Shown here: positions 46,773 to 62,359 of the stretch, piece after piece
Position numbering within the stretch: the stretch's first letter is position 1
Layout: every line of letters begins with the position of its first letter
Source: an uncultured Bacteroidales bacterium
GTDB taxonomy: Bacteria > Bacteroidota > Bacteroidia > Bacteroidales > Muribaculaceae
Direction of reading: 5' to 3'
Assembly (NCBI GenBank): GCA_902800715.1
Contig: CADCFN010000005.1
Span: 79,766-143,765, forward strand
DNA: 64,000 bases
Notes under the pieces: model-generated
Told to the model about the DNA's origin: nothing
Databases searched by the model: none
The model's input: the letters and a program-made list of their open reading frames with translations, nothing else
Made by a program: the position numbers and the translations under genes

Positions 46773-46944
46773 CTCTATTTTGCGTGAATACCCAAAACAA
46801 TTCCCTTTTCTATCAAATAATCCACATTTCTACAACTGCTTGTTTTATAGATAGTTACAAAAATCACCGATTGAGGCAAGAGAGAAAAATGCACTTTTTT
46901 TCAAAAAAAATCGCAAAAATTGTTGGCAGTTCCGAAAAAAGCAG

Positions 46945-46952
46945 TACCTTTG
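46945..46952 (+). promoter_or_regulatory. -7 promoter element of tRNA-Lys
   Basis: TACCTTTG followed by C, 22 bp before the tRNA. Confidence 0.6.
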
Positions 46953-46974
46953 CAGTCGCAATTGAATGAGCGAT

Positions 46975-47047
46975 GACTCCGTAGCTCAGTTGGTAGAGCA
47001 ATTGACTCTTAATCAATGGGTCGTGGGTTCGAGTCCCACCGGGGTCA
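46975..47047 (+). tRNA. tRNA-Lys (anticodon CUU)
   Basis: A 73-nt cloverleaf: acceptor GACTCCG/CGGGGTC with discriminator A, D arm GCTC-GAGC, anticodon stem ATTGA/TCAAT with loop CTCTTAA (anticodon CTT), variable loop GGGTC, T arm GTGGG-TTCGAGT-CCCAC. CCA is not encoded. Its 3' end and terminator are duplicated in the region downstream, which marks it as an integration site. Confidence 0.96.
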
Positions 47048-47058
47048 CGGAATTGAAC

Positions 47059-47094
47059 GCCAAATGGTTAATAATGAAGCCATTTGGCTTTTTT
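47059..47094 (+). terminator. Terminator of tRNA-Lys
   Basis: Perfect 9-bp stem GCCAAATGG (47059-47067) and CCATTTGGC (47080-47088), then TTTTTT. Degenerate copies occur at about 49053-49088 and 60862-60899. Confidence 0.85.
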
Positions 47095-47179
47095 GTTATG
47101 TCAACCATTGGCTTCTTCCCTGCGGGGCAAATGCTAATTACGCGAATTCAACGAATTGATTTGTAATCATTGCCAGTTC

Positions 47180-47293
47180 CGCCGCTAATTCTCCCGCAAG
47201 TATTACGCCTCAGTCATGCGACTGAAGGAGTTCTACGAAGAGAACGTAGGAGCCGAATTCTGTGGCACAGCTAAGCGTTGTCGAAGGTTTTAA
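47180..47293 (+). pseudogene. Fragment of the phage-like neck/tail protein gene
   Basis: In one frame this reads RR-stop-FSRKYYASVMRLKEF and EENVGAEFCG, clearly the C-terminal part of the intact 144-residue protein at 61302-61736 (RRWFSRKYYASVMNLKEF). The Trp codon of the intact copy is a TAA here and nothing of the N-terminal two thirds is present. It lies just after the tRNA-Lys terminator, as the intact gene lies just after the third tail copy. It is a relic, not expressed as protein. Confidence 0.8.
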
Positions 47294-47382
47294 GACAAAA
47301 TCACTAACTATGATTTCTGATAATGGAAATGTGGGCAGGCCACGCATGAGCGTCGCCTGCTTTGTAGAAAATAAGAAATGCA

Positions 47383-47736
47383 TTAATTATAATTAGTGAT
47401 GTGGAAGATCGTGAAGATGCTAAAGGCGTTAAGGAGTAAAAGAATGAAAAGAAGGAGATTACTAATCTGGAATCCAAAAAACAACACTAATAAGATGTTA
47501 GTAGCCAATAATGCTATTGTAGCAAGTGTATACACTACAATACCGATACTGCGCATCATTATATTGTGCTTTAAAAGAAGGCATAATAGTGATGTTACAA
47601 TAATAACACCAGAGAGGAGTCCAGACCATATACCAAAGCCAAATGCAGGTAAATAAGAAATCCCCTGTATCAACCAATAAAGAAGTACGGTTGGCAACAA
47701 ATATTCAGATTTCCAGAAATCGTTTTTAGTGCTCAT
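47383..47736 (-). CDS. Small polytopic membrane protein, unknown
   Basis: A 117-residue hydrophobic protein with probably four helices (about 13-30, 35-55, 60-82, 86-108) and an aromatic, polar C-terminus. No family recognised. AT-rich. It follows the NTF2-fold lipoprotein gene by 22 bp on the same strand and may be co-transcribed with it. Confidence 0.6.
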   Translation of the reverse strand: MSTKNDFWKSEYLLPTVLLYWLIQGISYLPAFGFGIWSGLLSGVIIVTSLLCLLLKHNIMMRSIGIVVYTLATIALLATNILLVLFFGFQISNLLLFILLLLNAFSIFTIFHITNYN

Positions 47737-47758
47737 GGCGAGTAATGTGCTTTAGACC

Positions 47759-48199
47759 TTATAATTCATGCCAGACGTCGAGAACTGCGCTATCGCTTTT
47801 GCGAAGTCTTATTACAGCAGTTCCACCAACCCAGCCTTCACCTTCAGGCAACGATCCTCGTACTTCCCACACCGTGTCGCCTTCAAGTTCCGCCACGAAA
47901 GGCAACTCGGTATAGATCTCCGACCCAAAGATGGGATACCAGACACTTTCGGCTATCTTAATGGCCGTTTCCTTGTCTGGCACCATACCGCGTCTCTGAG
48001 CCTCGGCTTTTCCATAGCCCTCAATTTTTGGCTGGATGCGAGGCTCAAGGTGAATAAATGTATCTTCCTCCACAAGGGTATACAATCCTGATTCGTGATA
48101 CTTTATGTTGCTGGGCCGCTGGCGCTGGCAACCCAGCAGCCCCAATGACAAGGCAACCCAAATGATACACACAAATAAACTAACCTTCTTCATATTCAT
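47759..48199 (-). CDS. NTF2-fold immunity-like lipoprotein
   Basis: A 146-residue lipoprotein (lipobox LGLLGC). The C-terminal half MVPDKETAIKIAESVWYPIFGSEIYTELPF, then VWEVRGSLPEGEGWVGGTAVIRL, fits the NTF2 fold immunity protein family (Imm-NTF2-2, PF15631) found beside polymorphic toxins. No toxin gene is visible nearby. An in-frame TTG at 48214 is less likely than ATG 48199 because the -7 box is at 48212-48219. A second, frameshifted copy lies directly upstream. Confidence 0.75.
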   Translation of the reverse strand: MNMKKVSLFVCIIWVALSLGLLGCQRQRPSNIKYHESGLYTLVEEDTFIHLEPRIQPKIEGYGKAEAQRRGMVPDKETAIKIAESVWYPIFGSEIYTELPFVAELEGDTVWEVRGSLPEGEGWVGGTAVIRLRKSDSAVLDVWHEL

Positions 48200-48211
48200 T
48201 TGTTTTTGGGG

Positions 48212-48219
48212 CAAAGATA
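48212..48219 (-). promoter_or_regulatory. -7 promoter element of the NTF2-fold lipoprotein
   Basis: Minus-strand TATCTTTG followed by C, 12 bp before ATG 48199; a short leader of a few nucleotides. Confidence 0.55.
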
Positions 48220-48661
48220 CTATTTTTCATGATTGACGTCGAGAACTGCAGCATCGCTTTTGCGAAGTCTTATTTCGGCACATCCACCAACCCTGTCTTT
48301 AGGCAACGATCCTCGTACAATCCACACCGTGTCACTTTCAAGTTCAGCAATGAAAGGCTGCTCGGTATAGATCTGCGACCCGTAGATGGGATACCAGATA
48401 CTTTCGGCAATCTTAATGGCCGTTTCCTTGTCTGGCACCATGCCACGACTCTTGTCAAATCCATAGCCCTCAAAATAGGGCCGGATGCGAGGAAGATGAA
48501 TCTTCCGTCATGTCAATAACTGAATCTTCCTCTTCCTCCTTAAGGATATAAAATCCTGTTTCGTCAAACTTTATGTTGCTTGGCCGCTGGCAACCCAGCA
48601 GCCCCAATGATAGGCCCCCCCAGATGATACACACAGATAAACAAACTTTCGTCATATTCAT
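48220..48661 (-). pseudogene. Frameshifted second copy of the NTF2-fold lipoprotein
   Basis: A tandem paralogue of the gene at 47759-48199. The first frame (from ATG 48661) gives the signal peptide and lipobox (LGLLGC) and ends at 48470. The conserved C-terminal half (MVPDKETAIKIAESIWYPIYGSQIY) is in another frame, open from about 48505 down to 48220. The shift lies at about 48495-48515, next to a duplicated GAAGATTCA. If the shift is real the protein is destroyed. Its own -7 box is at 48674-48681. Confidence 0.78.
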
Positions 48662-48673
48662 TTATTTTTGGGA

Positions 48674-48681
48674 CAAAAATA
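48674..48681 (-). promoter_or_regulatory. -7 promoter element of the frameshifted copy
   Basis: Minus-strand TATTTTTG, 13 bp before the ATG at 48661. Confidence 0.5.
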
Positions 48682-48785
48682 CTTGTTTTTGGCGACAAAA
48701 ACAAGAAGAAAAAGCATAATGAAGTTTTTTTCAAACAGTTGAAATACAGTGTTTCGCAAAAGGCGAAATATAGACCTCACTAATC

Positions 48786-49094
48786 ATCAATAAAAAAAAG
48801 ACGGTTTGCCATCTTTTTCCGTATCAGTTGGTGGTAGTTCTCCAGCAAAATAGAGACAGTTCTTTTGATGTAATTTTTGGGGCCAAGCAGCACCCTAAAT
48901 ATGGTTGTCAAAAATGACAACCGAGATTGACACCTAATGACACCCGATGACAAAGTGCCAGTATAAGAAATTCATGGGAATCAGCCGATTAGAGTGTCAA
49001 TTACTGTCATGCTGTGTTATGAATCAGAGCCCACCGAGGTCACCAAATTGAACGCCAAATGACTTGTAATGAGCCGTTTGGCTTTTTCGTTACA
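48786..49094 (+). repeat. Composite repeat copy A, ending in a tRNA-Lys tail
   Basis: From left to right: an AAAGACGG-type hairpin relic, GTATCAGTTGGTGGTAGTTC, the AGAGACAGTTCTTTTGATGT motif (about 48852-48871), a perfect hairpin GGTTGTCA/TGACAACC (48903-48922), and finally a tRNA-Lys 3'-end relic with GAGCCCACCGAGGTCAC (49027-49043) and the terminator hairpin (49053-49088). Parts recur at 52057-52140, 52564-52768, 54191-54212, 59111-59124 and 60710-60905. It is the longest copy. No coding sequence. Confidence 0.8.
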
Positions 49095-49150
49095 AAAAAA
49101 AGGATGTACCACTGGCACATCCTTAAAATCTGTAATAAGTTGAAATTGAT

Positions 49151-49720
49151 TTAGAACTTATATCCGACAGAAATTGTAAGGTTGCGGGTCTTAGCTGAAG
49201 CATCGTCAGCTACATCAAGAACACCAAAGTCGTAACCAATGGAAACTGGCACCTTCTGGTTGAATTCCAGACCAGCACGCAACCCCAAACCAAAATCAAA
49301 ACGCTTGTAACCCACCTCGTCGCTAAAGACGTCATAGCCATCAGTCTTACCAAACAAGCCAATACCGAAATAAGGACCAAATTCACCGAACAAGGCTAGG
49401 GTCTCGTTAATGGCATATTTGTAACCAAAATGTACAGGGATGTCCAGATAATAGGGATTGAATGTGATTCCGGCCGCCTTGGTTCCTTTGAGTGAGAGAA
49501 GTGCACCAGCGTTGCCATAGAAACCGTTGCTCACACTGGGAATACCAATGGTTGTGCGAATACCTGCATGGAAGCCGATACGTGAACTGCAACCACTGGC
49601 ATCAACGTTTGCTACATTCATACCAGCAACGATTTCCCACTTGGGAGCTTCTGCATTTGCCGTGAAACTCATTGACAAGGCAGCAACAGCTACCATCAGG
49701 ATTGAATAAATCTTTTTCAT
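49151..49720 (-). CDS. Outer-membrane beta-barrel protein
   Basis: A 189-residue protein with a signal peptide (about 1-23, cleaved after NAEA or ANA) and eight or so amphipathic strands (IVAGMNVANV, IGFHAGIRTTIG, YYLDIPVHFGYKY, LALFGEFGPYFGIG, FDFGLGLRAGLEF), ending LTISVGYKF. A small PF13568/OmpA-barrel-type protein. Has its own promoter at 49758-49765. It lies just inside the segment bounded by tRNA-Lys tails. Confidence 0.82.
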   Translation of the reverse strand: MKKIYSILMVAVAALSMSFTANAEAPKWEIVAGMNVANVDASGCSSRIGFHAGIRTTIGIPSVSNGFYGNAGALLSLKGTKAAGITFNPYYLDIPVHFGYKYAINETLALFGEFGPYFGIGLFGKTDGYDVFSDEVGYKRFDFGLGLRAGLEFNQKVPVSIGYDFGVLDVADDASAKTRNLTISVGYKF

Positions 49721-49757
49721 GTCTTTCTATTTTAAGTTTTCTAGTTGTTCAGTGCCG

Positions 49758-49765
49758 CAAAAATA
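49758..49765 (-). promoter_or_regulatory. -7 promoter element of the beta-barrel gene
   Basis: Minus-strand TATTTTTG followed by C, 37 bp before the ATG at 49720. Confidence 0.5.
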
Positions 49766-49847
49766 ACATTTATTTCTAATTTCAAGTAGTATTTCTCCGA
49801 TAATTCCATGAAGAAGTCTTGTCTTTTACTGGATGAAGGAGTCATTC

Positions 49848-49877
49848 TACTTTTGCTGAAAACATAAATCAGCAAAA
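49848..49877 (+). promoter_or_regulatory. -7 box overlapping an inverted repeat, truncated cassette
   Basis: TACTTTTG (49848-49855) overlaps an inverted repeat TTTTGCTGA (49851-49859) / TCAGCAAAA (49869-49877), 4 bp before the ATG of the broken phage-like gene. The same arrangement with a different arm sequence precedes the intact copy at 63737-63764. Confidence 0.65.
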
Positions 49878-49881
49878 GATT

Positions 49882-50144
49882 ATGATTGACATCCAACAAT
49901 TGACAGAACTGATCTCCGCATTCCGCGTCGAGACCGAGAAATCTGCGATTAAGTGAGTGCAATGTCAAACTTGTTTGAACATTGCCGAACGTGAGCAGAT
50001 TATGCAAAGAAAGCACTCACCCGAACCTTTAGCCGACTGAAAGGGAGGCAAACCGTCGGCTCCATCCTCCAGGCCATCGCCGACCTGCTGGCCACCGCCA
50101 CCAGCGAGACCGAGTACAACATCATCCGCTTCTGGAAGGAAACG
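49882..50144 (+). pseudogene. Disrupted copy of the MIDIQQL phage-like gene
   Basis: It starts MIDIQQLTELISAFRVETEK like the intact gene at 63774, then is interrupted by a 65-bp insert (49941-50005) with TGA in frame, a short homologous piece (50006-50024), another insert, and a second homologous block (50050-50144, TVGSILQAIADLL). Homology stops at the codon for the Thr of FWKET. The first insert carries inverted repeats (GTGAGTGC/GCACTCAC across 49953-50018). A relic. Confidence 0.8.
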
Positions 50145-50266
50145 AAAGGCAGCTGTTTTTTTATTTTACCTGGCCATCGCTGGCAAAGCATCGCTAGAAT
50201 CATTCATTTTGCAGCCCATTCGGGAAAATATTTGTATCTCACTCGCCGCCAATGACATAATTATTA

Positions 50267-50274
50267 TATATTTG
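50267..50274 (+). promoter_or_regulatory. -7 promoter element of the GH9 gene
   Basis: TATATTTG, 24 bp before ATG 50299. Confidence 0.6.
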
Positions 50275-50298
50275 TGCCAAAATACATACTATTGAATC

Positions 50299-52023
50299 AT
50301 GAAACAAGTGTTATCATTCGCCATTGCAGCCTTGACGGCCATCACGTTGACCGCCCAGAGCGAAAGCATCCGAATCAATCAAGTTGCTTTTTATCCGCAA
50401 CAGTCCAAAATCGCAGTCATCGAGGGCTCTAAAGCCCAAAAGATGACCATCAAAAACACGGCTGACGGCAAACGCGTGGGCAAAGCCAAGGCCTTGAGGA
50501 CCAACACCTCGCCGTGGTCAAACAAGAAACGCACCATCGTCGAAATCACGGGTATTACCGCCCCCGGCACCTATGAACTGAGCGTCAATGGCCAAAAGAC
50601 CCGCTTTGACGTGCAACCTCACGCATTGAACAACATAGCTCGTGCTGCGTTAAAGGCCTTCTACCTCAACCGCTCGGGCATTGCCATCGACGGCAAATAT
50701 GCCGGTGTTTATGCCCGTCCCTTAGGACATCCTGACACACAAGTCATGATCCATCCATCGGCTGTTTCGCCTGGCCGGCCTGCAGGCTCCATCATATCCT
50801 CGCCGCTGGGCTGGTATGATGCCGGCGACTACAACAAGTATATCGTCAACTCATCCTATTCGGTGGGACTGATGCTCATGGCCTATGAGCAGAACAAAGA
50901 GTATTTCAATCGTCTCAGCGCCGACATTCCCGAGAGCGGCAACGGCACTGCAGACCTGCTCGACGAGCTCATGTTTAATCTCAAGTGGATGATCACCATG
51001 CAGGATCCCTATGACGGAGGTGTTTACCACAAATTGACGACTCCCAATTTCGAGGGCTTTGTCATGCCCACCGACTGTCACCAACAGCGCTATGTGGTGC
51101 AAAAGAGTGTGACCGCCAGCTATGACTTTGCTGCTGTAATGGCACTTGCCGCACGCATCTACAAGGGCAACAAAGATTATCCTGCATTTGCCGAGCAGGC
51201 CCAAAAAGCCGCATTGGCTGCCTATCATTGGGCTGAGCTCAACCCTGAGGCCATCTATGATCAAGACAAGATGAACAAGGAGTTTGACCCCGATGTGACT
51301 ACAGGCACCTACGGCGACAACGATGCCAGCGACGAACATTTGTGGGCTGCTACCGAGCTGTTCCTGCTCACGGGCGACGAGTTCTTCCTTAAAGCCGCCC
51401 AGCCTTTGCGTGAGCGCGGATTCTCACAACCCGGTTGGGGAAATGTCACCGGACTTGCTATGTATTCATGGATTACCTGCGGCAACGACAAAACCGGCAT
51501 GCATGACCTCATGCTCAACAAGTTGTTGGGCTTCTGCGACCATCAGCTGTCGACCCTGAAGGCCTCGTCGTTCAATACGCCTGCTGGTAATCATGCCAAT
51601 GACTACGGTTGGGGTTGCCTGTCCGAGTGCTTCTGCACCAGTGGTCTTGCCCACCTGTACTGCTACCGCGCCACGGGCGACAAGAAATATCTTGAAGCAG
51701 CCCTCCAGAATGCCGATTATGTTTTAGGCCGTAATGCCACCGGATACTGCTATGTGACTGGCTTTGGCCACAAGCCACCCAAGAACATCCACCACCGCAT
51801 TTCGTCGGCCGACGGCATAGATGCCCCCATGCCTGGCCTGCTCGCCGGCGGACCCAATCCTGGCCAACAGGACAATGGCGACGGCAGTCTGCCTTACCCG
51901 TCCAAGCAACCCGATGAGTCCTACATCGACGCTACGGGCTCCTATGCCAGCAACGAAATTGCCATCAACTGGAATGCCTCGTTGGTATCGCTTCTGGGCT
52001 GGATTGATGCCGAGATGAAATAA
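50299..52023 (+). CDS. GH9 endoglucanase (cellulase)
   Basis: A secreted 574-residue family 9 glycoside hydrolase. Signal peptide about 1-19, an N-terminal Ig-like domain (about 23-106, IRINQVAFYPQQSKIAVIEG, the CelD_N type), then the (alpha/alpha)6 catalytic domain. D174 and D177 in WYDAGDYNKY are nucleophile-activating acid pair residues, H498 in KNIHHR and E553 (acid) in ASNEIAINW. All catalytic residues are present. It cleaves beta-1,4-glucans such as cellulose, xyloglucan or mixed-linkage glucan. Monocistronic, followed by a terminator. Confidence 0.93.
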   Translation: MKQVLSFAIAALTAITLTAQSESIRINQVAFYPQQSKIAVIEGSKAQKMTIKNTADGKRVGKAKALRTNTSPWSNKKRTIVEITGITAPGTYELSVNGQKTRFDVQPHALNNIARAALKAFYLNRSGIAIDGKYAGVYARPLGHPDTQVMIHPSAVSPGRPAGSIISSPLGWYDAGDYNKYIVNSSYSVGLMLMAYEQNKEYFNRLSADIPESGNGTADLLDELMFNLKWMITMQDPYDGGVYHKLTTPNFEGFVMPTDCHQQRYVVQKSVTASYDFAAVMALAARIYKGNKDYPAFAEQAQKAALAAYHWAELNPEAIYDQDKMNKEFDPDVTTGTYGDNDASDEHLWAATELFLLTGDEFFLKAAQPLRERGFSQPGWGNVTGLAMYSWITCGNDKTGMHDLMLNKLLGFCDHQLSTLKASSFNTPAGNHANDYGWGCLSECFCTSGLAHLYCYRATGDKKYLEAALQNADYVLGRNATGYCYVTGFGHKPPKNIHHRISSADGIDAPMPGLLAGGPNPGQQDNGDGSLPYPSKQPDESYIDATGSYASNEIAINWNASLVSLLGWIDAEMK

Positions 52024-52056
52024 CCCACCTAACGGGGTTGCATGAGGACGAATGAA

Positions 52057-52140
52057 AAATAAAGACGGCAAAAAATTGCCGTCTTTATCGTTTCAGTTGG
52101 TGTTAGTTCTCCTGCTAAACAGGGACGGTTCTTTTCCTGT
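52057..52140 (+). repeat. Composite repeat, left part (copy B1), with GH9 terminator
   Basis: A perfect 11-bp hairpin AAAGACGGCAA (52061-52071) and TTGCCGTCTTT (52076-52086) serves as GH9 terminator. It is followed by TTTCAGTTGGTGTTAGTTCT and AGGGACGGTTCTTTT (52121-52135), matching the left half of copy A (48786-48872). The right half appears about 430 bp further on, as if separated by an insertion. Confidence 0.7.
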
Positions 52141-52563
52141 TTTCAGCACTAGCATTATGTTAAAATAAATTTTGTTTGATATTCAGTGATTTAACGTCTT
52201 GATTTTTACAAAATGGCGTGCCCATGCTGTTTTCATCCGAGTAAAAGGTCAAAGACCTTGACAAGGGCACTGGCCTTGTGCAGGCTTTCGACCTGCTTGG
52301 ACACAACAATCGCCCTGAATTTCTTCACAGCGTGTCCCAATGCGGAAAACATGACTACGCACACGTGCGGGAAAATGGGTGCCCTGGCGGGCAAAAATCA
52401 AAACAAATCTGGAACAAATCAAAGACAAATCATATTAGTTGAGATTTGTATTAAATTTGTTTTGATTTCTCCGAGCGAAGCGAGGAGTCCCCTGTGCAAG
52501 GCGTGCACACGCGCAAAAAACGCATAAACGGTATCTTAGCGGCATAGCACCATTGCGTTGGAA
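52141..52563. other. Intergenic segment between split repeat halves
   Basis: About 420 bp that separates the left and right halves of the composite repeat. A 39-codon minus-strand frame (52352-52233, MFSALGHAVKKF onward) and a plus-strand frame at 52213-52527 exist; neither has a promoter, a clear start context or a recognised family, so neither is called a gene. Two short inverted-repeat pieces (GCACTGGCCTTGTGC, GAGCGAAGCGAGGAG) are present. Confidence 0.45.
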
Positions 52564-52768
52564 GAAAATATGGATGGTTCTATTGATGTAATTTTTGGGG
52601 TTAAGTAGCACCATAATATAGTTGTCAAAAATGACAACTGAGGTTGACACACGATGACATAGTGCAAGCATTAGAAATTCACGGGAATCAGGCGGTTATA
52701 GTGTTGATTGCTGTCATGCCATGTTATGAATCATAATCCACCAGCGGCACCTTGAGTGTCGCCTGCTT
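52564..52768 (+). repeat. Composite repeat, right part (copy B2)
   Basis: Contains the GGATGGTTCTATTGATGTA motif (about 52572-52590), the hairpin AGTTGTCA/TGACAACT (52620-52639), and a badly decayed tRNA-Lys tail (GAATCATAATCCACCAGCGGCAC, by position about 52728-52750). The hairpin differs from copy A by a compensating base pair (A-T for G-C at its base). Confidence 0.72.
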
Positions 52769-52902
52769 TTTAATAAGAATAGAGGTAAAGAATTAAGGAG
52801 GATGAAGTTGAATGATGTTTTTTATTTTCAAAAGGTTGAAATACAGTGGTTTGCGAAAAGTGAAATGAACTCCAATTATTTGCTGGTTTCGGTAATTGTC
52901 AG

Positions 52903-52910
52903 TAACTTTG
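52903..52910 (+). promoter_or_regulatory. -7 promoter element of the Sel1-repeat gene
   Basis: TAACTTTG followed by C, 46 bp before ATG 52957. Confidence 0.6.
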
Positions 52911-52956
52911 CAACCGAGGTATATCCGCATTGTTGAACGATTTAACAGGTGACGAT

Positions 52957-54162
52957 ATGAAACAGTTTCTTTTATTTGCAGCCCTTCTCATTGGTTCGCT
53001 TGCGGTTCAGGCGCAATCGATTGAGGCCTTGCGTGACTCCATGGCTGCCGGTAACCTCAATTGCCAGGTTGATCTGGCGATATGTTATCTCTTCGGTGAA
53101 GGTGTTGAACTAGACGTCGAGAAGGGCGTATCGCTCATCCGCGATGCCGCCGAAAAGGGCAACCGCTACGGCGAGTTATGGATGGGAGTGTGCTATAAAG
53201 ATGCCTATGGTGTCGAAACTGATTATGACGAAGCCTTCCGCTGGTTCAAGAGTTCTGCCCAGAAAGGCAATGTGGGTGCCATAGGCATGTTGGGAGAAGC
53301 CTACAAATTCGGGCAAGGAACCGAAAGAGATTTGGCCAAGGCTCTCTATTACTACGAGCAGGGCGCTGCCGGAGGAGATGCCCTATCCCAATATGCATTG
53401 AGCCGGCATTACCTGGTTGGAGATGGCGTTCAACGGAATTGGGAAAAGTGTTTTGACCTGCTCAAGCAGTCGGCTGATCAGAGTTATCCTGATGCATTTG
53501 AATTGCTGTCTTTGTGCTACCTCAACGGCTGGGGCACACCTAAAAGCCGGGATAAAGCCATCCAGTGTCTGGAGGAACTGAAGCAAGGGCAAGAAGAAAG
53601 TACCATCCAGGATATTGATGAAGTCATAGCCAACATCAATAAGGGAGATACGCTGAGCGCCTATGAGCTTCAATTCAGGATCTTGCCTCTACGGCTGGCA
53701 GGGTATGCTAACGGCACAATCGACGAGCAAGAGTTGATTGACTTGGAACTGCTTAACCTGCAGTTGGGTTTTTCGCTTTTTATCACCTACTACGAGTGCG
53801 ACCTGGACTCACTATCCATCAGCACGCATCAAGTTGACGATTCGATCACGGTTCATGTCATTCACATGCCTGAGCCAAGTCGCTCGCCATTGTGCAAGTA
53901 TGCCGCCTACGTTATGGACAAGAAGAACGGCCTGAGCCGTTATTACACCCTGGAAAAGACCTTCAATCTCTTTGGCGAATCCGGCGTTGCTGACCCCTAT
54001 GTCGTGGGAGGTATGGCACTAGTAGATGATGAAGTCAATGAGGCACCGTCGGGCAGTGATTACCCCGATGGCTTTTCCCACCTCAATTTCGGGTGGCTTG
54101 AGGGAGAGCCCACCGAGGAGAACTTCGTCAACACCATCCTACGCCTGTTCAAAGACAAGTGA
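52957..54162 (+). CDS. Sel1-repeat protein, secreted
   Basis: A 401-residue protein with a signal peptide (about 1-20, LLFAALLIGSLAVQAQ). Five or so Sel1-like repeats of about 36 residues follow (about 30-205: QVDLAICYLFGEGVELDVEKG, GELWMGVCYKDAYGVETDY, AIGMLGEAYKFGQGTERDL, SQYALSRHYLVGDGVQRN). A C-terminal non-repeat domain (about 230-401) has no recognised family. Sel1 repeats mediate protein binding; the partner is unknown. The frame opens at 52930, but ATG 52957 starts the signal peptide. Confidence 0.85.
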   Translation: MKQFLLFAALLIGSLAVQAQSIEALRDSMAAGNLNCQVDLAICYLFGEGVELDVEKGVSLIRDAAEKGNRYGELWMGVCYKDAYGVETDYDEAFRWFKSSAQKGNVGAIGMLGEAYKFGQGTERDLAKALYYYEQGAAGGDALSQYALSRHYLVGDGVQRNWEKCFDLLKQSADQSYPDAFELLSLCYLNGWGTPKSRDKAIQCLEELKQGQEESTIQDIDEVIANINKGDTLSAYELQFRILPLRLAGYANGTIDEQELIDLELLNLQLGFSLFITYYECDLDSLSISTHQVDDSITVHVIHMPEPSRSPLCKYAAYVMDKKNGLSRYYTLEKTFNLFGESGVADPYVVGGMALVDDEVNEAPSGSDYPDGFSHLNFGWLEGEPTEENFVNTILRLFKDK

Positions 54163-54190
54163 CGAAAACTGAATCACGATAAGGAAGAAA

Positions 54191-54212
54191 ATAGGGACGG
54201 TTCTTTGATGTA
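54191..54212 (+). repeat. Short GGGACGGTTCT repeat
   Basis: ATAGGGACGG followed by TTCTTTGATGTA, a solo copy of the motif found in the composite repeats (48852, 52121, 52572) and at 59111-59124. Confidence 0.6.
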
Positions 54213-54229
54213 TTGAAAACTATTAAGTA

Positions 54230-54613
54230 ATGATGGAAAAGAACGAAAAAATCATACGTCGCATTGGAACTTATTTTCTGGTATTAGGATTCATTTGTTC
54301 CTTTTTGGTTCAGAAAAATTTTTCACCATTATATGGTAATATAGTGTGCTCAATTTGCGTCGTTCTGATGTGCTCACCGCGATTGATTTACCAAAACAAG
54401 AAGTGGGCGAGTGTGCTGCTCATGATTAGTGCCATCCTGACGACATTGGCACTGCTGTGTTTTTACGCAATATCAATCATCATCTCCGTTGCGTTCGGTC
54501 TGGATGTTTCAGGCGCCATCATCTTAGGCGTTATCACAGTCATAGCGCACTTGAATTGTTACCTGTGCTACCGCCTTTTCAAGTTACTTTTCAAGTCAAA
54601 AGAAGCGGCATAA
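54230..54613 (+). CDS. Small polytopic membrane protein, unknown
   Basis: A 127-residue protein with four hydrophobic segments (about 14-30, 35-50, 58-88, 92-118) and a basic C-terminus. No family recognised. ATG codons at 54230 and 54233 are equally possible. It follows a short repeat motif and ends 20 bp before a strong terminator, which supports it as a real gene. Confidence 0.6.
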   Translation: MMEKNEKIIRRIGTYFLVLGFICSFLVQKNFSPLYGNIVCSICVVLMCSPRLIYQNKKWASVLLMISAILTTLALLCFYAISIIISVAFGLDVSGAIILGVITVIAHLNCYLCYRLFKLLFKSKEAA

Positions 54614-54633
54614 AGCCATATCCAAGACGAAAG

Positions 54634-54665
54634 GCTCACCGATGACGTCGGTGAGCTGTTTTTTT
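54634..54665 (+). terminator. Rho-independent terminator
   Basis: Perfect 9-bp stem GCTCACCGA (54634-54642) and TCGGTGAGC (54648-54656), then TTTTTTT (54659-54665). Confidence 0.9.
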
Positions 54666-54824
54666 GCCCAAATACCATGCCTCTGGCTGGGTGAATGGGT
54701 CATTCTTCTTTTGGTTCCAGCTTATTTTATTCAGCGAGATATGAAGATTGATTGCGGCACATGAAAGTGCGGTCAATGCGAGCCAAAGAACGAACAGGTC
54801 TACGATAACACCCTTATTCTTCAA
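54636..54824 (-). CDS. Possible small single-helix protein
   Basis: A 62-residue frame with one hydrophobic helix near the N-terminus (VIVDLFVLWLALTALSCAA). It has a TTG start, and its 3' end runs through the terminator hairpin of the opposite gene. A -7 box at 54903-54910 points at it. No family recognised; it may be spurious. Confidence 0.25.
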   Translation of the reverse strand: MKNKGVIVDLFVLWLALTALSCAAINLHISLNKISWNQKKNDPFTQPEAWYLGKKTAHRRHR

Positions 54825-54902
54825 GCGTGGTTACACTCGGTTATCTTGTTTTTTGCTGGCCATAGTTACTATTCAAAATGGTTATATGATAAATATTTGA
54901 TG

Positions 54903-54910
54903 CAAAAGTA
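54903..54910 (-). promoter_or_regulatory. Possible -7 promoter element, minus strand
   Basis: Minus-strand TACTTTTG followed by C. The only frame downstream is the small uncertain ORF at 54636-54824, or an RNA. Confidence 0.4.
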
Positions 54911-54973
54911 AGATATTTTCCCGAAAAACCGTGTCATCATTGTTATAATGATGTTTTATAGGTTCTTGGTTGC

Positions 54974-57900
54974 TCATTTCTCGATCCGCTTCTTGATTGT
55001 CACGGGGCCCATCAGACCTGCCGGGAGCAGGGGAGAGTCGGCCTTGTAGAAGTCGGCAGGCGTATAGGTGTATTTCTTGTCGCAATCGGGCTGCAAATCA
55101 CCGATGATGCGGTTTACCCATTGATTGGCCACCTTGATTTCGAGGCGGTTTTCGCCGGCACGGACAGATTTGCTGATGTCAATCTGATAGGGTGCCTTCC
55201 ACAGGGTACCCACCTCTGTGCCATTGAGCGTCACCTGGGCCATGCATCCCACCTCGCCCAGGTCGAGCAGGATGTCCCCATTGCCGAGTTCTTGCTTCTG
55301 GACATTGAAGCTGTTATCATAAACGGCGGTACCTGAATAGTACTTGATGCCGTTGTCACTGGACTCGGTATAGGAAATGAGCCTCGGGAACACGATGCTG
55401 GCTGGGCCGCCCCACTGTTCGTCAAAGTGGACGGTCCACGGGGTGTCAATCTGTCGCAATTGGATTACTTGCTTCTTGGGAACGGACTTCAACTTGTTCG
55501 GGGTTTTTCCCTGGAACACGACAAAGAAGGCATCCTCTGGCAACATATCGAGGTGGACGGTGGTTTCGGCATCACTCATCTTGTAGGACACCTCCTCAAT
55601 TTCGCCCGTTTCGGGGTGCCACAGGGTGGGCTCAAGGCCGCTGACGCGGAAGGAGACATCACAGGTCCTCGCTTCTTCGGCCCGGTTGTTCAGCCAGTAG
55701 ATCTCGCTGTCGGCGGTTGTGCGGTGGACGTAGCGCAGGTTGCTCATGTCGGCAGTCATTACATCGGGCTGGATTTCAAGAAGCGGCATATCCTTCGGTC
55801 GTGTCTTCTCGTCAATGATTGTTGCTCCCTGCTGCTGCAGGGTGGCAAGTTTGGCACGGACAGCATCGGACATGTGCCGACATTGCTCTGAAACGACCAA
55901 CACGCTGTATTGGTTGCCCGATGGCGTGACGAAGTGTTCCCCGTCATAAGTGATCAGGTCGAGTAGAGCCTCCTTGTTCAGGTAATCGAAGTTGTAGCCG
56001 GGCGGTATGGCGGGGTGCTCATGGGCGAACAAGCTGGTAATCACGTCGTCCTCACCGTAATAATAAAGTATATCGGCAACATTGCGGCCCTGTTGCAGCA
56101 GGTAACTGCTGCGGGCCAGATAGTCGGTCCAGGCCTTGGCCATCTCGGCCCAGATCTCATGGCGGTTGAACCACTGGCCATAAACCATCAGCCCCAGTCC
56201 GGGCTTCTTGTCATCGACGGGCTGGTGTGCGCTCTCGTGGATGACAAATCGGTTGGTGCCGCAGGACATCTCGAGGTCGGCTGTCGCCTTCAGGTTGCCG
56301 GGATAGTAGCTATAGGCACCGCCACTCATTCCGTTTGCAGTCAACGACTCGGTTGCGACAAGAGGCTTGCCGTAGAGGTGGGCCACCGACGCCGACTCGC
56401 GGATATCGCTTTCGGCCATACTGGCATTGGAGTTATCGGCTTTGACCCCCTTGGGAATCGTCCACATGGCGGCCATGGGAATGTCGGCCTGGCGCTTGAC
56501 GCTCATGCCGTCGGCCAGGTAGAGTCTGCCGTTCTCGTGGGACTCAAAGTAGGTCTCCATGCCGTGTTCATGAGCAATGCGCGCCGCGTTCTCGTACATG
56601 CACTCCTGAATCAGCTCACCGATGGTCGTTCGCCAGTCATAGAGGAACTCCTCGCTCTGTTCTGCCGAACCGATGATTTCGCCTGTCAGCACAGGCAGCC
56701 ATGGCATCAGGTTGTAACCGCGGCGCTGTTCAAACTCCTGTGGCATCCGGGCACACCAGGTTTCCCATCCGGCTTCATAGCTGTCAATTAGCAGGTAATG
56801 TAACCCCCGCTCGCCCATCATGCCGCCTGTCGCTTCCTGATAGGTGCTGAGGTAATACTCCAGGAAGTCGGTGAAGGCCTGTTTGTCGATTTTGGATACC
56901 TCTAGTCCGGTCGCCTCGGGCGATGCGGGATGGTTCTCCTTGCCCGTGAGGGTGTAGCCGAACCGATAGATTTTCCAATCACCCTTGGGGACTTTCCAGG
57001 TCAAGACACCATTATCATCGACACGGTCGGTGATGTCGATGACATCGGTCAAGTGGATGACCTCACCTGCCTCGGTGGTCGTGACGAAGTCCATCATGTC
57101 CGAGGACGATGCAAAACCCGCTTTCTCCTCAGCGTGGTTGATTCGGGGCGTGGTGTATAGTTTAAGTTGGGGCGTGATGCCTGGTTTCTGTTCAAATGTG
57201 ATGCGAAAGCACCGTCCCCGAGTAGGCTCGATGTCGATAGTCTGCCACCCGACGCTGCCGTGCGGAATGCCGCACACACGCCTGAACGTGACACCGTCGT
57301 CGCTCACCTCGAGCCATTTGGTCACGGGGGCGGGTTGGGCGGCCCAGATGCTGCGATAGTTGCCGTCCTTGATGCTCAAAGCCTTGATGACGGTTGGTTT
57401 CTTGAACTGGTATTGGACCCAATAGGGCTGCTGCAGGCTATCGCTGGTCATGAAAGTGGCACCCAGTTCCTCCATCGTCTTGTCGGCAGGGTTTGCCTTC
57501 ACGGCGAGGACGCAGATGTCGGCATACCAGCGCTCGTCCCTGTTGGGCTTGGGCAGGGTAACACTTAGCTTGCCGCCCTGGACACGCGTCTCGCTCCACA
57601 CGAGCCGCTTCATCGCCTGCTCGGGTTTTACCCAGGGCCCTCCGGTGTTGCTCCAGCCCGGGCAGCTGGCGACCGCAACTTCCATACCTAGCGAGTCGGC
57701 CATCGACACAGCATGCCTGAACTCTTCCTGCCACTCGGGGCTCATATAGACCAGCCGATGCTCCACGATGGATTTGCCCCAGAATGCAGCATCAAAGCAA
57801 TGGAAACCACCGATGCCCACGCGGTGCATCCACGCGATGTCCTTGTCGATGCCGTCGCGGGTGATGTTGCCGTTCATCCAGTGCCACCACACGCGAGGGC

Positions 57901-57997
57901 GTGCCTCCTGAGGCGGTTCCTGGAAGCCAGTCATCAGCTCCTGTGCCGTGGCGAGTATTGCCAGCAGTTGTATTAAGATGAACAGTTTTAATCTCAT
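54974..57997 (-). CDS. GH106 alpha-L-rhamnosidase-like glycosidase
   Basis: A 1007-residue secreted enzyme (signal about 1-18). The N-terminal FQEPPQEARPRVWWHWMNGNITRDGIDKDI and the region GMEVAVASCPGWSNTGGPWV are characteristic of family GH106 (PF17132). A galactose-binding-like insertion (about 180-290), LHYLLIDSYEAGWETW and ATESLTANGMSGGAYS lie in the barrel, and a C-terminal beta-sandwich (about 860-1000, ending GLMGPVTIKKRI) closes the protein. GH106 enzymes remove alpha-L-rhamnose from pectic and other glycans. The substrate cannot be told. Follows the GDPD gene by 47 bp. Confidence 0.88.
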   Translation of the reverse strand: MRLKLFILIQLLAILATAQELMTGFQEPPQEARPRVWWHWMNGNITRDGIDKDIAWMHRVGIGGFHCFDAAFWGKSIVEHRLVYMSPEWQEEFRHAVSMADSLGMEVAVASCPGWSNTGGPWVKPEQAMKRLVWSETRVQGGKLSVTLPKPNRDERWYADICVLAVKANPADKTMEELGATFMTSDSLQQPYWVQYQFKKPTVIKALSIKDGNYRSIWAAQPAPVTKWLEVSDDGVTFRRVCGIPHGSVGWQTIDIEPTRGRCFRITFEQKPGITPQLKLYTTPRINHAEEKAGFASSSDMMDFVTTTEAGEVIHLTDVIDITDRVDDNGVLTWKVPKGDWKIYRFGYTLTGKENHPASPEATGLEVSKIDKQAFTDFLEYYLSTYQEATGGMMGERGLHYLLIDSYEAGWETWCARMPQEFEQRRGYNLMPWLPVLTGEIIGSAEQSEEFLYDWRTTIGELIQECMYENAARIAHEHGMETYFESHENGRLYLADGMSVKRQADIPMAAMWTIPKGVKADNSNASMAESDIRESASVAHLYGKPLVATESLTANGMSGGAYSYYPGNLKATADLEMSCGTNRFVIHESAHQPVDDKKPGLGLMVYGQWFNRHEIWAEMAKAWTDYLARSSYLLQQGRNVADILYYYGEDDVITSLFAHEHPAIPPGYNFDYLNKEALLDLITYDGEHFVTPSGNQYSVLVVSEQCRHMSDAVRAKLATLQQQGATIIDEKTRPKDMPLLEIQPDVMTADMSNLRYVHRTTADSEIYWLNNRAEEARTCDVSFRVSGLEPTLWHPETGEIEEVSYKMSDAETTVHLDMLPEDAFFVVFQGKTPNKLKSVPKKQVIQLRQIDTPWTVHFDEQWGGPASIVFPRLISYTESSDNGIKYYSGTAVYDNSFNVQKQELGNGDILLDLGEVGCMAQVTLNGTEVGTLWKAPYQIDISKSVRAGENRLEIKVANQWVNRIIGDLQPDCDKKYTYTPADFYKADSPLLPAGLMGPVTIKKRIEK

Positions 57998-58001
57998 TTT
58001 T

Positions 58002-58048
58002 TTAGCTGTTAGCCACTCCTAACTTCTAACTCCTCACTTCTCACTCAA
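58002..58048. repeat. Low-complexity CTAACT tract between GDPD and GH106 genes
   Basis: Imperfect short repeats (TTAGCTGTTAGCCACTCC, TAACTTCTAACTCCTCACT). The GDPD stop lies at its edge. Resembles the tracts at 28728-28767 and 45217-45240. Confidence 0.45.
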
Positions 58049-58998
58049 AACCTCCTTCTCCCCTTCTTCTCAAGGTACTTGATAAGGAATTCGGGGCGGT
58101 CGGTCTGGATGATTGATGTCCCTAGGTCGAGGATTGGGCCATAGACCTTGTCGGGGTCGGGGCTGTCATAGGCCCTGTCGTCATCATGGTCACCGCACAG
58201 GGAACCCCAGATAGTGTTTACCCATACCTTGGACCCGGCATCCAGCACTCGCTTGGCGGTGTTCTTAATGTTGTCGTCGAGCGTGTCAAAGCACAGCTCA
58301 AAGGCGATAGGCACCGTCTCGGGGTTGGCGAGATAGCTGTTAAAGGTGGTCATGTCCGAGCCTCTGGCAACGCTCACCACGGGCATATACATCATCTTGT
58401 GGGCGTACCGTGACATCCTCTGTTGCACTTTGTCAAGCGGTTGCCCGTTCTTGATGAGCACCTGGTCGGTCATGCCCAGCTCTTCGGTAATCGCGAGCAC
58501 CTGGTCATAATAGTCAAATCCCTGGTCCACGTTGACCACAATGCGGTCCTTGCACACTTCCAGTGCCTGACGCAGGGTGGGGATTTTCAGACCCGGTATG
58601 GCGATGCCGTGGCCCCGTTTGAGGTCGAAGGCCAGCAACTGCTCGTAGGTGTAATCGCTGATGTTGCCGCTGCCTGTCGTTGTGCGGTTCAGCGTCCAGT
58701 CATGGCTCAGTACCAGCACGCTGTCGCGCGTCATCTTCACGTCAAGCTCCATCACGTCAACGCCCATGCGGATGACCGACTCGATGGCGGGGATGGAATT
58801 TTCGGGATAGTTGCGCCAGTCGCCACGGTGGGCAACCACGACCACATAGCGTGTCGAGGCATCATGCAGCGCCGCGACAATCTTGTCGGCGCGCCCTGTT
58901 TGACCTATAGTCCCCTCATGGAGACGCTGGCTGCACGACATGAGCCCGATACAGGCAACAACCAGCAGCATCAATATTTGTCTTTTTTTCATCCTCAT
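58045..58998 (-). CDS. Glycerophosphodiester phosphodiesterase family lipoprotein
   Basis: A 317-residue lipoprotein (lipobox GLMSC, Cys 22). The GDPD core is intact: VVVAHRGDWRNYPENSIPAI with H57, then VMELDVKMTRDSVLVLSHD supplying the metal Glu/Asp and second His. A C-terminal GPILDLGTSIIQTDRP is typical. The family hydrolyses glycerophosphodiesters, but many Bacteroidota members act beside glycosidases and may cleave other phosphodiesters. Upstream partner of the GH106 gene; promoter at 59053-59060. Confidence 0.9.
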   Translation of the reverse strand: MRMKKRQILMLLVVACIGLMSCSQRLHEGTIGQTGRADKIVAALHDASTRYVVVVAHRGDWRNYPENSIPAIESVIRMGVDVMELDVKMTRDSVLVLSHDWTLNRTTTGSGNISDYTYEQLLAFDLKRGHGIAIPGLKIPTLRQALEVCKDRIVVNVDQGFDYYDQVLAITEELGMTDQVLIKNGQPLDKVQQRMSRYAHKMMYMPVVSVARGSDMTTFNSYLANPETVPIAFELCFDTLDDNIKNTAKRVLDAGSKVWVNTIWGSLCGDHDDDRAYDSPDPDKVYGPILDLGTSIIQTDRPEFLIKYLEKKGRRRF

Positions 58999-59052
58999 CG
59001 TTTATGCTTATCATTAAACTGCAGCTTTCCTTAAGCTCTTATTATCAACCCA

Positions 59053-59060
59053 CAAAGTTA
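59053..59060 (-). promoter_or_regulatory. -7 promoter element of the GDPD-GH106 unit
   Basis: Minus-strand TAACTTTG, 54 bp upstream of ATG 58998. Confidence 0.55.
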
Positions 59061-59110
59061 ACATGTTTTTTACAAAACCTCACAAAAAATGGCTGAATGA
59101 AAACAGGAAA

Positions 59111-59124
59111 ATAGGGACAGTTCT
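59111..59124 (+). repeat. Short GGGACAGTTCT repeat
   Basis: ATAGGGACAGTTCT, a solo copy of the dispersed motif seen at 48852, 52121, 52572 and 54191. Confidence 0.5.
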
Positions 59125-59229
59125 AAAACCATAAAGAGATAAAATTCACTGAAATGTCTACTTTTATAAATTTATTCTTCTAAATAACATTTTCAGTGCC
59201 TACTTTGATGGTCTAGCACATCTAAAACA

Positions 59230-59318
59230 AAGTTCGTCTAGAAAAATGGCAATATCACACATAAGTTCCCCTAGAAAAGTGTAATAATTGTTTGGAAGTT
59301 CCCCTAGAAAAGTGTAAT
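59230..59318 (+). repeat. Three direct repeats with exact 33-bp period
   Basis: Copies begin at 59230 (degenerate: AAGTTCGTCTAGAAAAATGG), 59263 and 59296 (both AAGTTCCCCTAGAAAAGTGT followed by AAT). Each 23-bp unit is followed by a 10-bp spacer of unrelated sequence, so the copies are three helical turns apart. They end 28 bp before the ATPase ATG. Iteron-like; probably an operator or protein-binding array for the ATPase gene. No -7 box is seen between array and ATG. Confidence 0.8.
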
Positions 59319-59346
59319 TTCGCGGCGTAAATAATTAGTTAACAAG

Positions 59347-60648
59347 ATGAAAAGAGAACTTGAGAGCAAACTGTTAGCGTGGAAGAATAATCCCAGCCGT
59401 AAGCCTTTGATTGTCATGGGCGCAAGACAAGTGGGAAAAACGTATCTGTTACAGCAGTTTGGATGCGTTCATTATGACCATATGGCCTATATCAACTGTG
59501 ACAACAACCCTCGTGTTGCTAATCTGTTTGCAGAGGATTATGACATGGAGCGCATTATACTTGCCATAGGTGCAATAACCGGTGTTCCCATCATTGCAGG
59601 AAAGACTTTGATTGTCCTCGATGAAATACAGGAACTGAAAAATGGTCTGACTGCATTGAAATACTTCTGCGAACAGGCATCGCAGCACCATGTAGCAGTG
59701 GCGGGTTCGTTGTTGGGCATCACTATGCACCACGGAGAATCGGCACCTGTCGGAAAGGTTGATATACTCAATCTGTATCCGTTGACTTATACAGAGTTTC
59801 TCCAAGCTTTAGGTCATGAGCAATTGGTACAGGTTTTGAAGTCTAACGATTGGAAAACTATCCAGATGCTGAAATACGATTTCATCAAGTACCTGCGCAT
59901 TTACTATTTTGTAGGTGGGATGCCGGAGTCAGTGTTGAAATATATTGAAACCCACGACACGATGTCGGTAAGAGAGGTGCAGAACAATATTCTAGCCATT
60001 TACCGAAGCGACATGTCTAAACATGCCACTCCACAAGAAGTGGTGCGTATCACACAGGTGTGGCAATCTATACCATCTCAACTTGCACGTGAGAACAAAA
60101 AATTCATCTATGGAGCCATCAAATCGGGAGCACGCGCACGTGAGTTTGAACTGGCTATCCAATGGTTGCAAGATGCTGGGTTAGTCATTCGAGTTAATCG
60201 TGCCTCTAAGCCAAATCTGCCACTGAAATTCCATGAAGCCCCGTCTGCATTCAAGCTATATATGCTTGATGTTGGCATGTTGGGGGCATTGGGAAATATA
60301 CCTCCTGAACAGTTGTTGACTAGGGATAATGAACTCTATGACAGCAAAGGTGCTATTACCGAAAATTATGTTGTAAGCCAGATAGCAACTATGCGCGATG
60401 TGACGATGTGCTACTATAGCAACCAAAACCATACCCTTGAAATTGATATGCTTCTGCAAGAGAGGTCCAACATTTGGCCCATTGAAATAAAAGCAGAGGA
60501 AAACCTAAGATCAAAATCGTTGAGCACTTATGTCAAGAATAATCCGTCACTTACAGGATTACGATTCTCAATGAGCGACTACCGCGATCAGCAATGGATG
60601 TTCAACGTACCATTGTATGCTTGTGCAACATTCTTCATGAATAATTAG
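59347..60648 (+). CDS. AAA+ ATPase with DUF4143 domain
   Basis: A 433-residue protein of the AAA_14/DUF4143 type. Walker A is GARQVGKT (residues 25-32), Walker B is LIVLDEIQ (D92-E93), and the C-terminal DUF4143 region (about 210-400) includes a restriction-endonuclease-like patch (NHTLEIDMLLQE, WPIEIKAEE, with Asp and Glu-x-Lys). Bacteroidota often carry many such genes, and their role is not established. Single gene preceded by the 33-bp direct repeats. Followed by composite repeat copy C. Confidence 0.88.
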   Translation: MKRELESKLLAWKNNPSRKPLIVMGARQVGKTYLLQQFGCVHYDHMAYINCDNNPRVANLFAEDYDMERIILAIGAITGVPIIAGKTLIVLDEIQELKNGLTALKYFCEQASQHHVAVAGSLLGITMHHGESAPVGKVDILNLYPLTYTEFLQALGHEQLVQVLKSNDWKTIQMLKYDFIKYLRIYYFVGGMPESVLKYIETHDTMSVREVQNNILAIYRSDMSKHATPQEVVRITQVWQSIPSQLARENKKFIYGAIKSGARAREFELAIQWLQDAGLVIRVNRASKPNLPLKFHEAPSAFKLYMLDVGMLGALGNIPPEQLLTRDNELYDSKGAITENYVVSQIATMRDVTMCYYSNQNHTLEIDMLLQERSNIWPIEIKAEENLRSKSLSTYVKNNPSLTGLRFSMSDYRDQQWMFNVPLYACATFFMNN

Positions 60649-60709
60649 ATAAGATGTGCATTTCCTTGACTCCGGAAAGAAAAAGATACTGAAACTGATA
60701 CACGAAAGG

Positions 60710-60905
60710 CGGTTGGCAAATATGGCAACCGAAATTGACACCTAATGAAACCCGTTGACATAGTTCTAACATTAGAAATTCATGATAACCAGGTGGCTAT
60801 AGTGTCAATTACTACCATGCTATGTTAAGAATCAGAGCCCACAAGGGGCACGGAATCAAACGCCAAGTGGTTAATAATGAAGCCATTTGGCTTTTTTGTT
60901 TTCCC
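60710..60905 (+). repeat. Composite repeat copy C, ending in a tRNA-Lys tail
   Basis: Right part of the composite repeat: a weaker hairpin GGTTGGCA/TGGCAACC (60711-60730, one G-G mismatch), then the shared GAAATTGACACCTAATGA region, then a tRNA-Lys tail relic (60832-60853, GAGCCCACAAGGGGCAC) and the terminator-like hairpin GCCAAGTGG/CCATTTGGC with T-run (about 60862-60899), nearly identical to that of the real tRNA. Confidence 0.8.
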
Positions 60906-60929
60906 TATTGTTGGCGTGTTCCTGACAAA

Positions 60930-62327: not shown

Positions 62328-62359
62328 AATGTGAATTGGAAAAAGGCTCTAGACAATTA

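Follow-up and report, generated by a model that had tools for sequence, protein, structure and literature searches.

Tycheposons and phage satellites target tRNA genes, use tyrosine integrases and carry cargo, and clusters of attC sites lacking integron-integrases (CALINs) are built of small cassettes with a recombination site at one end, the integrase being expected in trans. Tycheposons and phage satellites are both named in PMC11389934, in which CALINs are integron cassette arrays without an integrase. Cis-mobilizable elements (CIMEs) measure 1.2-13 kb and accrete in tandem, among other places at tRNA-Lys CTT of Streptococcus agalactiae, according to PMC7563491, and 16 of the 31 ssrA islands of Dehalococcoides contain an integration module, as given in PMC3146451. 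Here we describe an array at a tRNA-Lys(CTT) gene in a stretch of 64,000 nucleotides, hereafter the window, from an uncultured Bacteroidales bacterium of the Muribaculaceae (assembly GCA_902800715.1, here G000; positions 79,766 to 143,765 of contig CADCFN010000005.1, here C5). We judge it probable that this tRNA anchors an array of small mobile cassettes, bounded by attachment (att) sites and moved in trans by a tyrosine integrase belonging to a clade of 450-aa enzymes. Other G numbers stand for the genomes of relatives, C numbers for contigs and L numbers for loci.

The anchor, an intact tRNA-Lys(CTT) at 46975-47048 on the plus strand, is the sole tRNA detected in the window by ARAGORN and, at 74.9 bits with the Rfam tRNA model, the only match in an Rfam scan of 46900-61200. 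Its 3' tail and terminator hairpin (47035-47096, plus strand), which we read as the first copy on the attL side, recur at about 49030-49091 and 60838-60900 with 84% and 90% identity over 62 nt (E-values of 3e-12 and 8e-19 with the tRNA's own tail as query), and a decayed copy lies near 52728-52763. The presence of these copies and of the decayed relative, noticed in an earlier note written from the letters of the window, was thus confirmed. The tail copies do not stand alone but form the right-hand half of a longer repeat: upstream of all three later tails the shared sequence extends for about 130 bp (starting at 48895, 52617 and 60704), which the earlier note had missed. The preceding arm of about 135 bp, which the 49-, 52.6- and 60.7-kb copies have and the tRNA itself lacks, begins with the palindrome GGTTGTCAAAAATGACAACC (48903-48922; variants at 52620-52639 and 60711-60730) and continues with TGACA/TGTCA repeats. 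Arm, tail and terminator together make up the right end of a cassette at 48895-49091 and again at 60704-60900, and the arm and the decayed tail occupy 52617-52763, all on the plus strand. A profile of arm plus tail, built from ten training sequences that included the 49- and 60.7-kb copies and left the 52.6-kb copy outside, gave E-values of 2e-64 (49 kb), 1e-31 (52.6 kb) and 2e-58 (60.7 kb), which exclude chance for the tail copies. The 60.7-kb arm is 99.3% identical to one in a relative (G036:C17). The units between these sites have att-like sites on both sides and Pfam contents without recombination or transfer genes, several open reading frames (ORFs) being without a family match. In sequence, arm and tail resemble what an element that had integrated at the 3' end of a tRNA gene would have as its right end.

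The array probably continues on a second contig of the same genome, C16, because the end of C16 (L055:10151-10249) is identical to the last 99 nt of the window (63902-64000). This identity is probably an assembly overlap that joins C5 to C16, although part of it lies within repeat D6 and it could be a mere shared repeat. Outside the window, arm plus tail was found in G000 only at G000:C16:59790-59994, the other matches being short. That copy lies 256-459 nt in from the contig end and, if the overlap is a true join, about 0.16-0.36 kb beyond the end of the window; the array would then hold five tail copies, including the tRNA's own.

The same kind of end is found beside integrase genes. Three elements encode a tyrosine integrase of 450-451 aa with the domains PF17293 (arm-binding), PF13102 and PF00589, and its start codon lies 145-148 bp downstream of the first base of the palindrome; a fourth integrase-bearing element, in G094, is alike. 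Three of the four have a tRNA-Phe tail behind the arm and the remaining one a tRNA-Arg tail. These ends have the palindrome and the layout in common with those in the window, with repeats that vary from kind to kind. Two further integrases of the clade (70%) adjoin a variant palindrome and a different tail. At an identity of at least 70%, the clade has six members in 5 of the 101 genomes of the genus, with a split and more distant one in G124, and in a sample of the family (347 genomes) it is present in 1 of 30 genera; among the 62 array loci, integrases of this kind occur in L060, L066 and L067. A search for the palindrome and arm start in a species collection (84,980 genomes) returned 31 stretches, all in Bacteroidales-type records and many from ruminant samples. 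These 31 loci contain 33 arms, 3 of which have less than 600 bp on the side where an integrase would lie, and 4 of the loci hold the integrase. The arm-start pattern did not occur in viral contigs, nor the Lys arm in the phage collection, nor the Phe arm in the plasmid collection. No left end was found for the integrase-bearing elements: a search of eight loci gave no tRNA, and a search for a second tail on the far side gave none. A D5_N/DUF5906 protein lies near the integrase at one locus (L130:122-1204), and an HTH_17 protein follows it at another (L067:10139-10471), as in satellites or integrative and mobilizable elements (IMEs).

The genome from which the window comes has two proteins matching PF00589, one a XerD above the model cut-off and the other nearest to XerC and below it. 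Both are encoded outside the window, so the absence of an integrase asserted by the earlier note holds for tyrosine recombinases. The PF00589 search found no dedicated tyrosine integrase in G000, an assembly of 88.9% completeness, from which an integrase may for that reason be missing. The integron integrase model TIGR02249 scored far below its cut-off with both G000 tyrosine recombinases, and it was not among the matches at E<=0.01 for two integrases of the 450-aa clade. G000 also has two matches to the serine recombinase family PF00239, in open frames of 222 and 242 aa.

Compared with CIMEs, the locus is similar in that its att-bounded units carry no recombination genes, measure from about 1 kb and stand in tandem at the 3' end of the target. 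It is unlike them in that integrase-less units are usual, stand several in a row and often consist of one gene, and in that the palindrome-led end is found at three tRNA targets. As in CALINs, there is an array of small cassettes with a presumed site at one end and an integrase expected in trans; unlike CALINs, the array has a tRNA anchor, a tRNA tail within the site and a candidate integrase with an arm-binding domain, and gene orientation is not uniform in the Lys arrays. Tycheposons and phage satellites are comparable in tRNA targeting and cargo, but the cassettes of the window lack integrase and replication genes. With tRNA-targeting tyrosine-integrase elements in general, the locus shares the intact tRNA, a far border marked by a direct repeat of the tRNA's 3' end, and the arm beside the core, the difference being that no integrase gene lies inside the units of the window. 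The Dehalococcoides islands likewise follow an RNA gene in tandem, and each closes with a direct repeat of that gene's 3' end preceded by a conserved motif, but theirs are a six-gene serine recombinase module and a 15-bp motif, whereas here the arm is about 135 bp long and contains a palindrome (PMC3146451). In titles and the beginnings of abstracts of the open-access literature, we recognized no tRNA-anchored cassette array in Bacteroidales. By this comparison, the arrays share features with CIMEs, Dehalococcoides islands and CALINs, and are set apart by the palindrome-led end at several tRNAs and by the predominance of integrase-less, often single-gene units; the tRNA anchor sets them apart from integrons.

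Each cassette ends in an att-like site made of the palindrome, short direct and inverted repeats over about 115 bp, and the tRNA 3' end with its terminator, the short repeats being putative arm sites of the integrase. According to the mechanism that we propose, arm plus tail would correspond to attR and the tRNA itself to attL, as expected for integration by a tyrosine recombinase at a tRNA 3' end. The tRNA-tail core of an incoming cassette would recombine with the chromosomal one, so that the tRNA stays intact and the older cassettes are pushed outward. The enzyme would most likely be the 450-aa tyrosine integrase of the clade found beside the same palindrome at tRNA-Phe and tRNA-Arg, acting in trans and only sporadically present. 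One integrase clade acting in trans is suggested because the cassettes are compact and the palindrome is shared with the integrase-bearing ends. Circular intermediates, an exchange point and a Lys-specific enzyme would be involved, and the cassettes would travel between cells.

Arrays of this kind are spread over the genus. A Lys arm of at least 120 bp was found in 20 of the 101 genomes, among at most eight scored candidates per genome (33 genomes when tRNA tails alone are included), and at least two Phe tails on one contig were likewise found in 20 of the 101, including G000 itself (G000:C1). The third type of tail is that of tRNA-Arg(ACG), a tRNA contained in 8 of the 13 loci scanned out of 30. 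Lys cassettes have a median size of 2103 bp (range 781-11938; n=35) and Phe cassettes one of 2208.5 bp (range 845-9534; n=50), with L057, L058 and L246 (tail only) and gaps above 12 kb left out. Cassettes with an ORF of at least 120 aa number 48 in the Phe and 35 in the Lys arrays; in 45 of the former and 20 of the latter, the last gene is directed away from the tRNA, so the orientation bias is a property of the Phe arrays. The stop of such an away-pointing last gene lies no more than 80 bp from the site in 41 of the 45 Phe and 18 of the 20 Lys cases, and a single gene pointing away from the tRNA makes up 31/48 Phe and 10/35 Lys cassettes.

The cargo of the Phe arrays consists largely of proteins with BspA-type leucine-rich repeats (LRR; 50 of 58, two of these matches being below the Pfam cut-off) and dockerin domains (45 of 58; E<=0.001 for both), the remaining proteins including a muramidase and a TonB-type barrel. 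In the Lys arrays the cargo is diverse, with 37 Pfam families in 26 proteins and no family in more than six of them; the scan covered 26 of 37 proteins, the other 11 being further members of families F2, F3, F4, F5 and F7. No conjugation genes were named among the cassette and element proteins scanned by family models, and no leftovers of integrase-bearing elements among the cassette proteins scanned. One Lys cassette, in G067 (L234:6758-7894), encodes a 379-aa protein with a reverse transcriptase domain (PF00078, E 3.8e-21).

The arms themselves fall into kinds. A Lys-type arm adjoins a Lys core in 16 of the 33 arms, a Phe-type arm a Phe core in 6 and an Arg core in 1, and one side is unclassed or cut in the other 10. 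The Lys and Phe kinds separate cleanly: full Lys arms (n=29) carry 2.21 TGACA and 1.34 TGTCA each and no GGTGA, and full Phe arms (n=11) have neither TGACA nor TGTCA and carry 1.45 GGTGA and 1.27 ACTCA each. In the Arg-tail arms of L068 and L070, TTACA and TGTAA occur three times each and form a third kind of repeat. We advance only tentatively, as one joint claim, the wider proposal that tRNA genes may be docking sites for rows of often single-gene cassettes, served in trans by an integrase clade with diversified arm repeats, which would be an integron-like logic built from unlike parts. TGACA/TGTCA would then belong mostly to Lys, GGTGA/ACTCA mostly to Phe and TTACA/TGTAA to Arg, and gut Bacteroidales would trade LRR-dockerin surface proteins at tRNA-Phe, and glycosidases, ATPases and immunity genes at tRNA-Lys, across species.

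Different species have cassettes in common, at differing positions of their arrays. For the Lys arrays, 29 pairs of cassettes between species were counted (alignments of at least 900 bp only; cassettes above 6 kb left out, so that 31 of the 35 were kept), and 20 of these are at different positions. A value for the flank (about 1.5 kb upstream of the tRNA, one per genome) was available for 27 pairs, of which 26 exceeded it by more than 5 points, as in a cassette identity of 98.2% against 83.7% for the flank. The GH9 cassette of the window, at position 2, is 95.6% identical to its counterpart at position 1 in G025 (flank 79.3%) and 96.4% identical to that at position 4 in G083 (flank 84.1%); the best Phe pair reaches 99.0%, against 81.2% for the flank. 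The first 1340 bp after the tail were compared in the 190 genome pairs with an alignable upstream flank and at least 1300 bp to the right of the tail, which represent 22 of 26 genomes (G017, G081, G062 and G020 being out). At least 1000 bp aligned in 5 pairs, 151-999 bp in 23 and no more than 150 bp in 162. In the two closest testable pairs, G000/G036 (95.8% upstream) and G025/G105 (92.3%), the first cassettes are unrelated, with 0 bp of those 1340 aligned, and all nine pairs with at least 700 bp aligned after the tail have an identity there that exceeds that of the flank by more than 5 points. G036 retains the 49-kb arm of the window and the sequence following it at 92.7%, and its differing first cassette fits the expectation that new cassettes enter next to the tRNA. 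On these comparisons, horizontal movement of the cassettes is well supported.

Several observations weigh against the proposal that an integrase of the 450-aa clade moves the Lys cassettes in trans. None of the 22 arms that are Lys-type by motif (22 of 33, under crude motif rules) has an integrase beside it, and the searches of the genus and of the array loci found no Lys-specific integrase; the only relative at a tRNA-Lys tail, in G110, is 37-41% identical and has a different arm. The kind of arm and the tRNA do not correspond one to one, as L060 combines an Arg tail with an arm of the Phe kind, and in L121 an arm of the TGACA kind precedes the non-Lys tail of another gene. The 29 Lys pairs are not independent, because they form five linked groups; they were also selected by length of alignment and rest on a single flank per genome. 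For the Phe cassettes, only 6 of the 35 pairs with a flank value exceed the flank by more than 5 points.

The borders of the shared cassettes count against it as well. Of 33 pairs drawn from four shared gene families, 9 have a longest alignment that extends to the left tail in both members, and 22 have one that enters the right arm or tail by at least 40 bp in both; 7 reach both borders. In 3 of the 33, for example between position 1 of G078 and position 4 of G083, this alignment begins within one base of the first position of the tail. By these counts, the right border is usually the site, and the left border is often internal to a composite cassette. Judged by eye, the terminator alleles are mosaic and do not stay with the right-hand cassette. 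Mapping of the crossover from these alleles, also by eye, failed. The earlier note had recommended looking for an empty tRNA-Lys locus in related genomes, and near-empty sites do exist in G064 and G115, where the genes of the right flank are 240-430 bp from the tail start; to that extent they speak for the proposal, but they are not base-exact: their alignment to occupied sites does not start at the tail. In G064, the distance from the start of the tRNA tail to the genes found beyond the array in G000 (on C16), G083 and G107 is 429 bp; in G115 a neighboring gene lies 241 bp away, and neither genome has a further Lys arm or tail within the 10 kb examined. Because the Lys enzyme is unseen, the terminator alleles are mosaic, the left borders are often off the tail and no circle was seen, no metagenome having been scanned for one, we keep CIME accretion and homologous recombination as alternatives, each of which we regard as unlikely.

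In the first of these, the cassettes would be decayed remnants of integrative and conjugative elements, IMEs or satellites, that is, CIMEs, accreted at the tRNA and carried in cis by an adjacent complete element. CIMEs of 1.2-13 kb offer a precedent, 215 of them at the S. agalactiae tRNA-Lys CTT being cited in PMC7563491, and the same end is found in integrase-bearing elements, of which one has a D5_N/DUF5906 neighbor and another an HTH_17 neighbor. In the window, signs of decay (remnants, a decayed tail) occur in cassettes 2 and 3, and composites are frequent among the shared cassettes. Random decay, however, is unlikely to have left stops within 80 bp of the site in 41/45 Phe and 18/20 Lys cases, although these junctions are not independent, because the Phe cargo is largely one gene family and the Lys families recur. 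A history of repeated integrations followed by loss of the integrase had been suggested by the earlier note: the tandem att-like copies at the tRNA-Lys 3' end without an integrase stand, but this history is too narrow, because 4 of the 31 arm-start loci hold an integrase, small and compact units are numerous, and the cassettes that species have in common exceed the host DNA in similarity and often differ in position.

In the second, foreign DNA taken up by the cell would recombine homologously through the repeated ends, each about 200 bp long, and so shuffle the cassettes, with no integrase active today. This reading would agree with the lack of a dedicated tyrosine integrase in G000, with the mosaic terminator alleles and with the frequent location of homology borders within cassettes (24 of 33 pairs); the REP-like (repetitive extragenic palindromic) repeats and a large gene family would supply further homology. 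It is doubtful to the same degree as CIME accretion, given that some alignments start at the first base of the tail between a tRNA-proximal and an internal cassette (position 1 of G078 or G106 against position 4 of G083), and it would still require an origin for the att-like ends. Much less probable is a reading in which one resident gene was duplicated in tandem along with the tRNA tail. This would apply chiefly to the tRNA-Phe arrays, as their wealth of BspA-type LRR (50/58) and dockerin (45/58) proteins suggests, but the Lys arrays carry many unrelated genes with the same kind of end, the same palindrome adjoins integrase genes, and Phe cassettes are up to 99% alike across species. A dispersed repeat family that captured a tRNA tail, which the earlier note had set against the att reading, is barely credible: the later tails do belong to a longer repeat, but this repeat sits behind the tRNA with the palindrome of integrase-bearing ends, its arm-plus-tail copies in G000 lie behind tRNA-Lys or on the probably joined contig, and in the relatives' loci where the tRNA was found the copies follow the cognate tRNA.

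The scattered part of a 311-bp query (positions 48-79, AAAATAGGGACGGTTCTTTTG-like) is a separate REP-like repeat, which is why the dispersed-repeat reading of the arm-plus-tail copies was set aside. In the window, AAAATAGGGACGGTTCTTTTG is present at 48847-48890, 52565-52600, 54183-54204 and 59103-59124; it is scattered across many genomes of the genus, sometimes in inverted pairs about 950 bp or about 100 bp apart, and it resembles a REP family of the type associated with REP-associated tyrosine transposases (RAYT).

Cassette 1 (47097-48894, 1798 bp) encodes an NTF2-fold immunity protein (47759-48214, minus strand) and contains a second, shorter-framed DNA copy of that gene at about 48220-48690, together with a 117-aa ORF without a Pfam match; its start resembles the stretch 61600-61695. 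Cassette 2 (49092-52616, 3525 bp) comprises the gene for an outer-membrane beta-barrel protein (49151-49720, minus strand), a remnant (49878-50144) of the gene at 63.8 kb and a GH9 glycosidase gene (50299-52023, plus strand). The remnant and the gene in question, which ends cassette 4 (63768-64000), have 95 nt identical, and in several relatives the end of this gene adjoins the arm. In cassette 3 (52764-60703, 7940 bp) are the genes for a Sel1-repeat protein (52930-54162), a 127-aa ORF, a GH106 protein (54974-57997, minus strand), a GDPD/DUF4996 protein (58045-58998, minus strand) and an AAA_14/DUF4143 ATPase (59347-60648, plus strand). Cassette 4 (60901-64000) is open at the contig end; its ORFs at 60877-61191, 61302-61736, 61755-62327 and 62360-63562 have no Pfam or NCBIfam match, and the one from 63768 to the end has no Pfam match. 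Upstream of the array, at 45211-45576, a 61-bp unit is repeated five times in tandem between an 842-aa ORF and an aminotransferase gene. A block CGACAGCGAGTCTGGAAAAGAAG recurs at L046 and L055, about 100-200 bp after the tail, and at L069; it is followed by a terminator-like hairpin and then by genes for secreted proteins.

If the cassettes anchored at tRNA-Lys are indeed moved in trans by the 450-aa integrase clade, the material for testing it, namely an integrase, its arm and core, and a cassette, has been identified, and the movement of integrase-less islands would thereby become directly testable. One genus of gut Bacteroidales would then have a polar, modular route between species by which accessory genes are swapped a few at a time.

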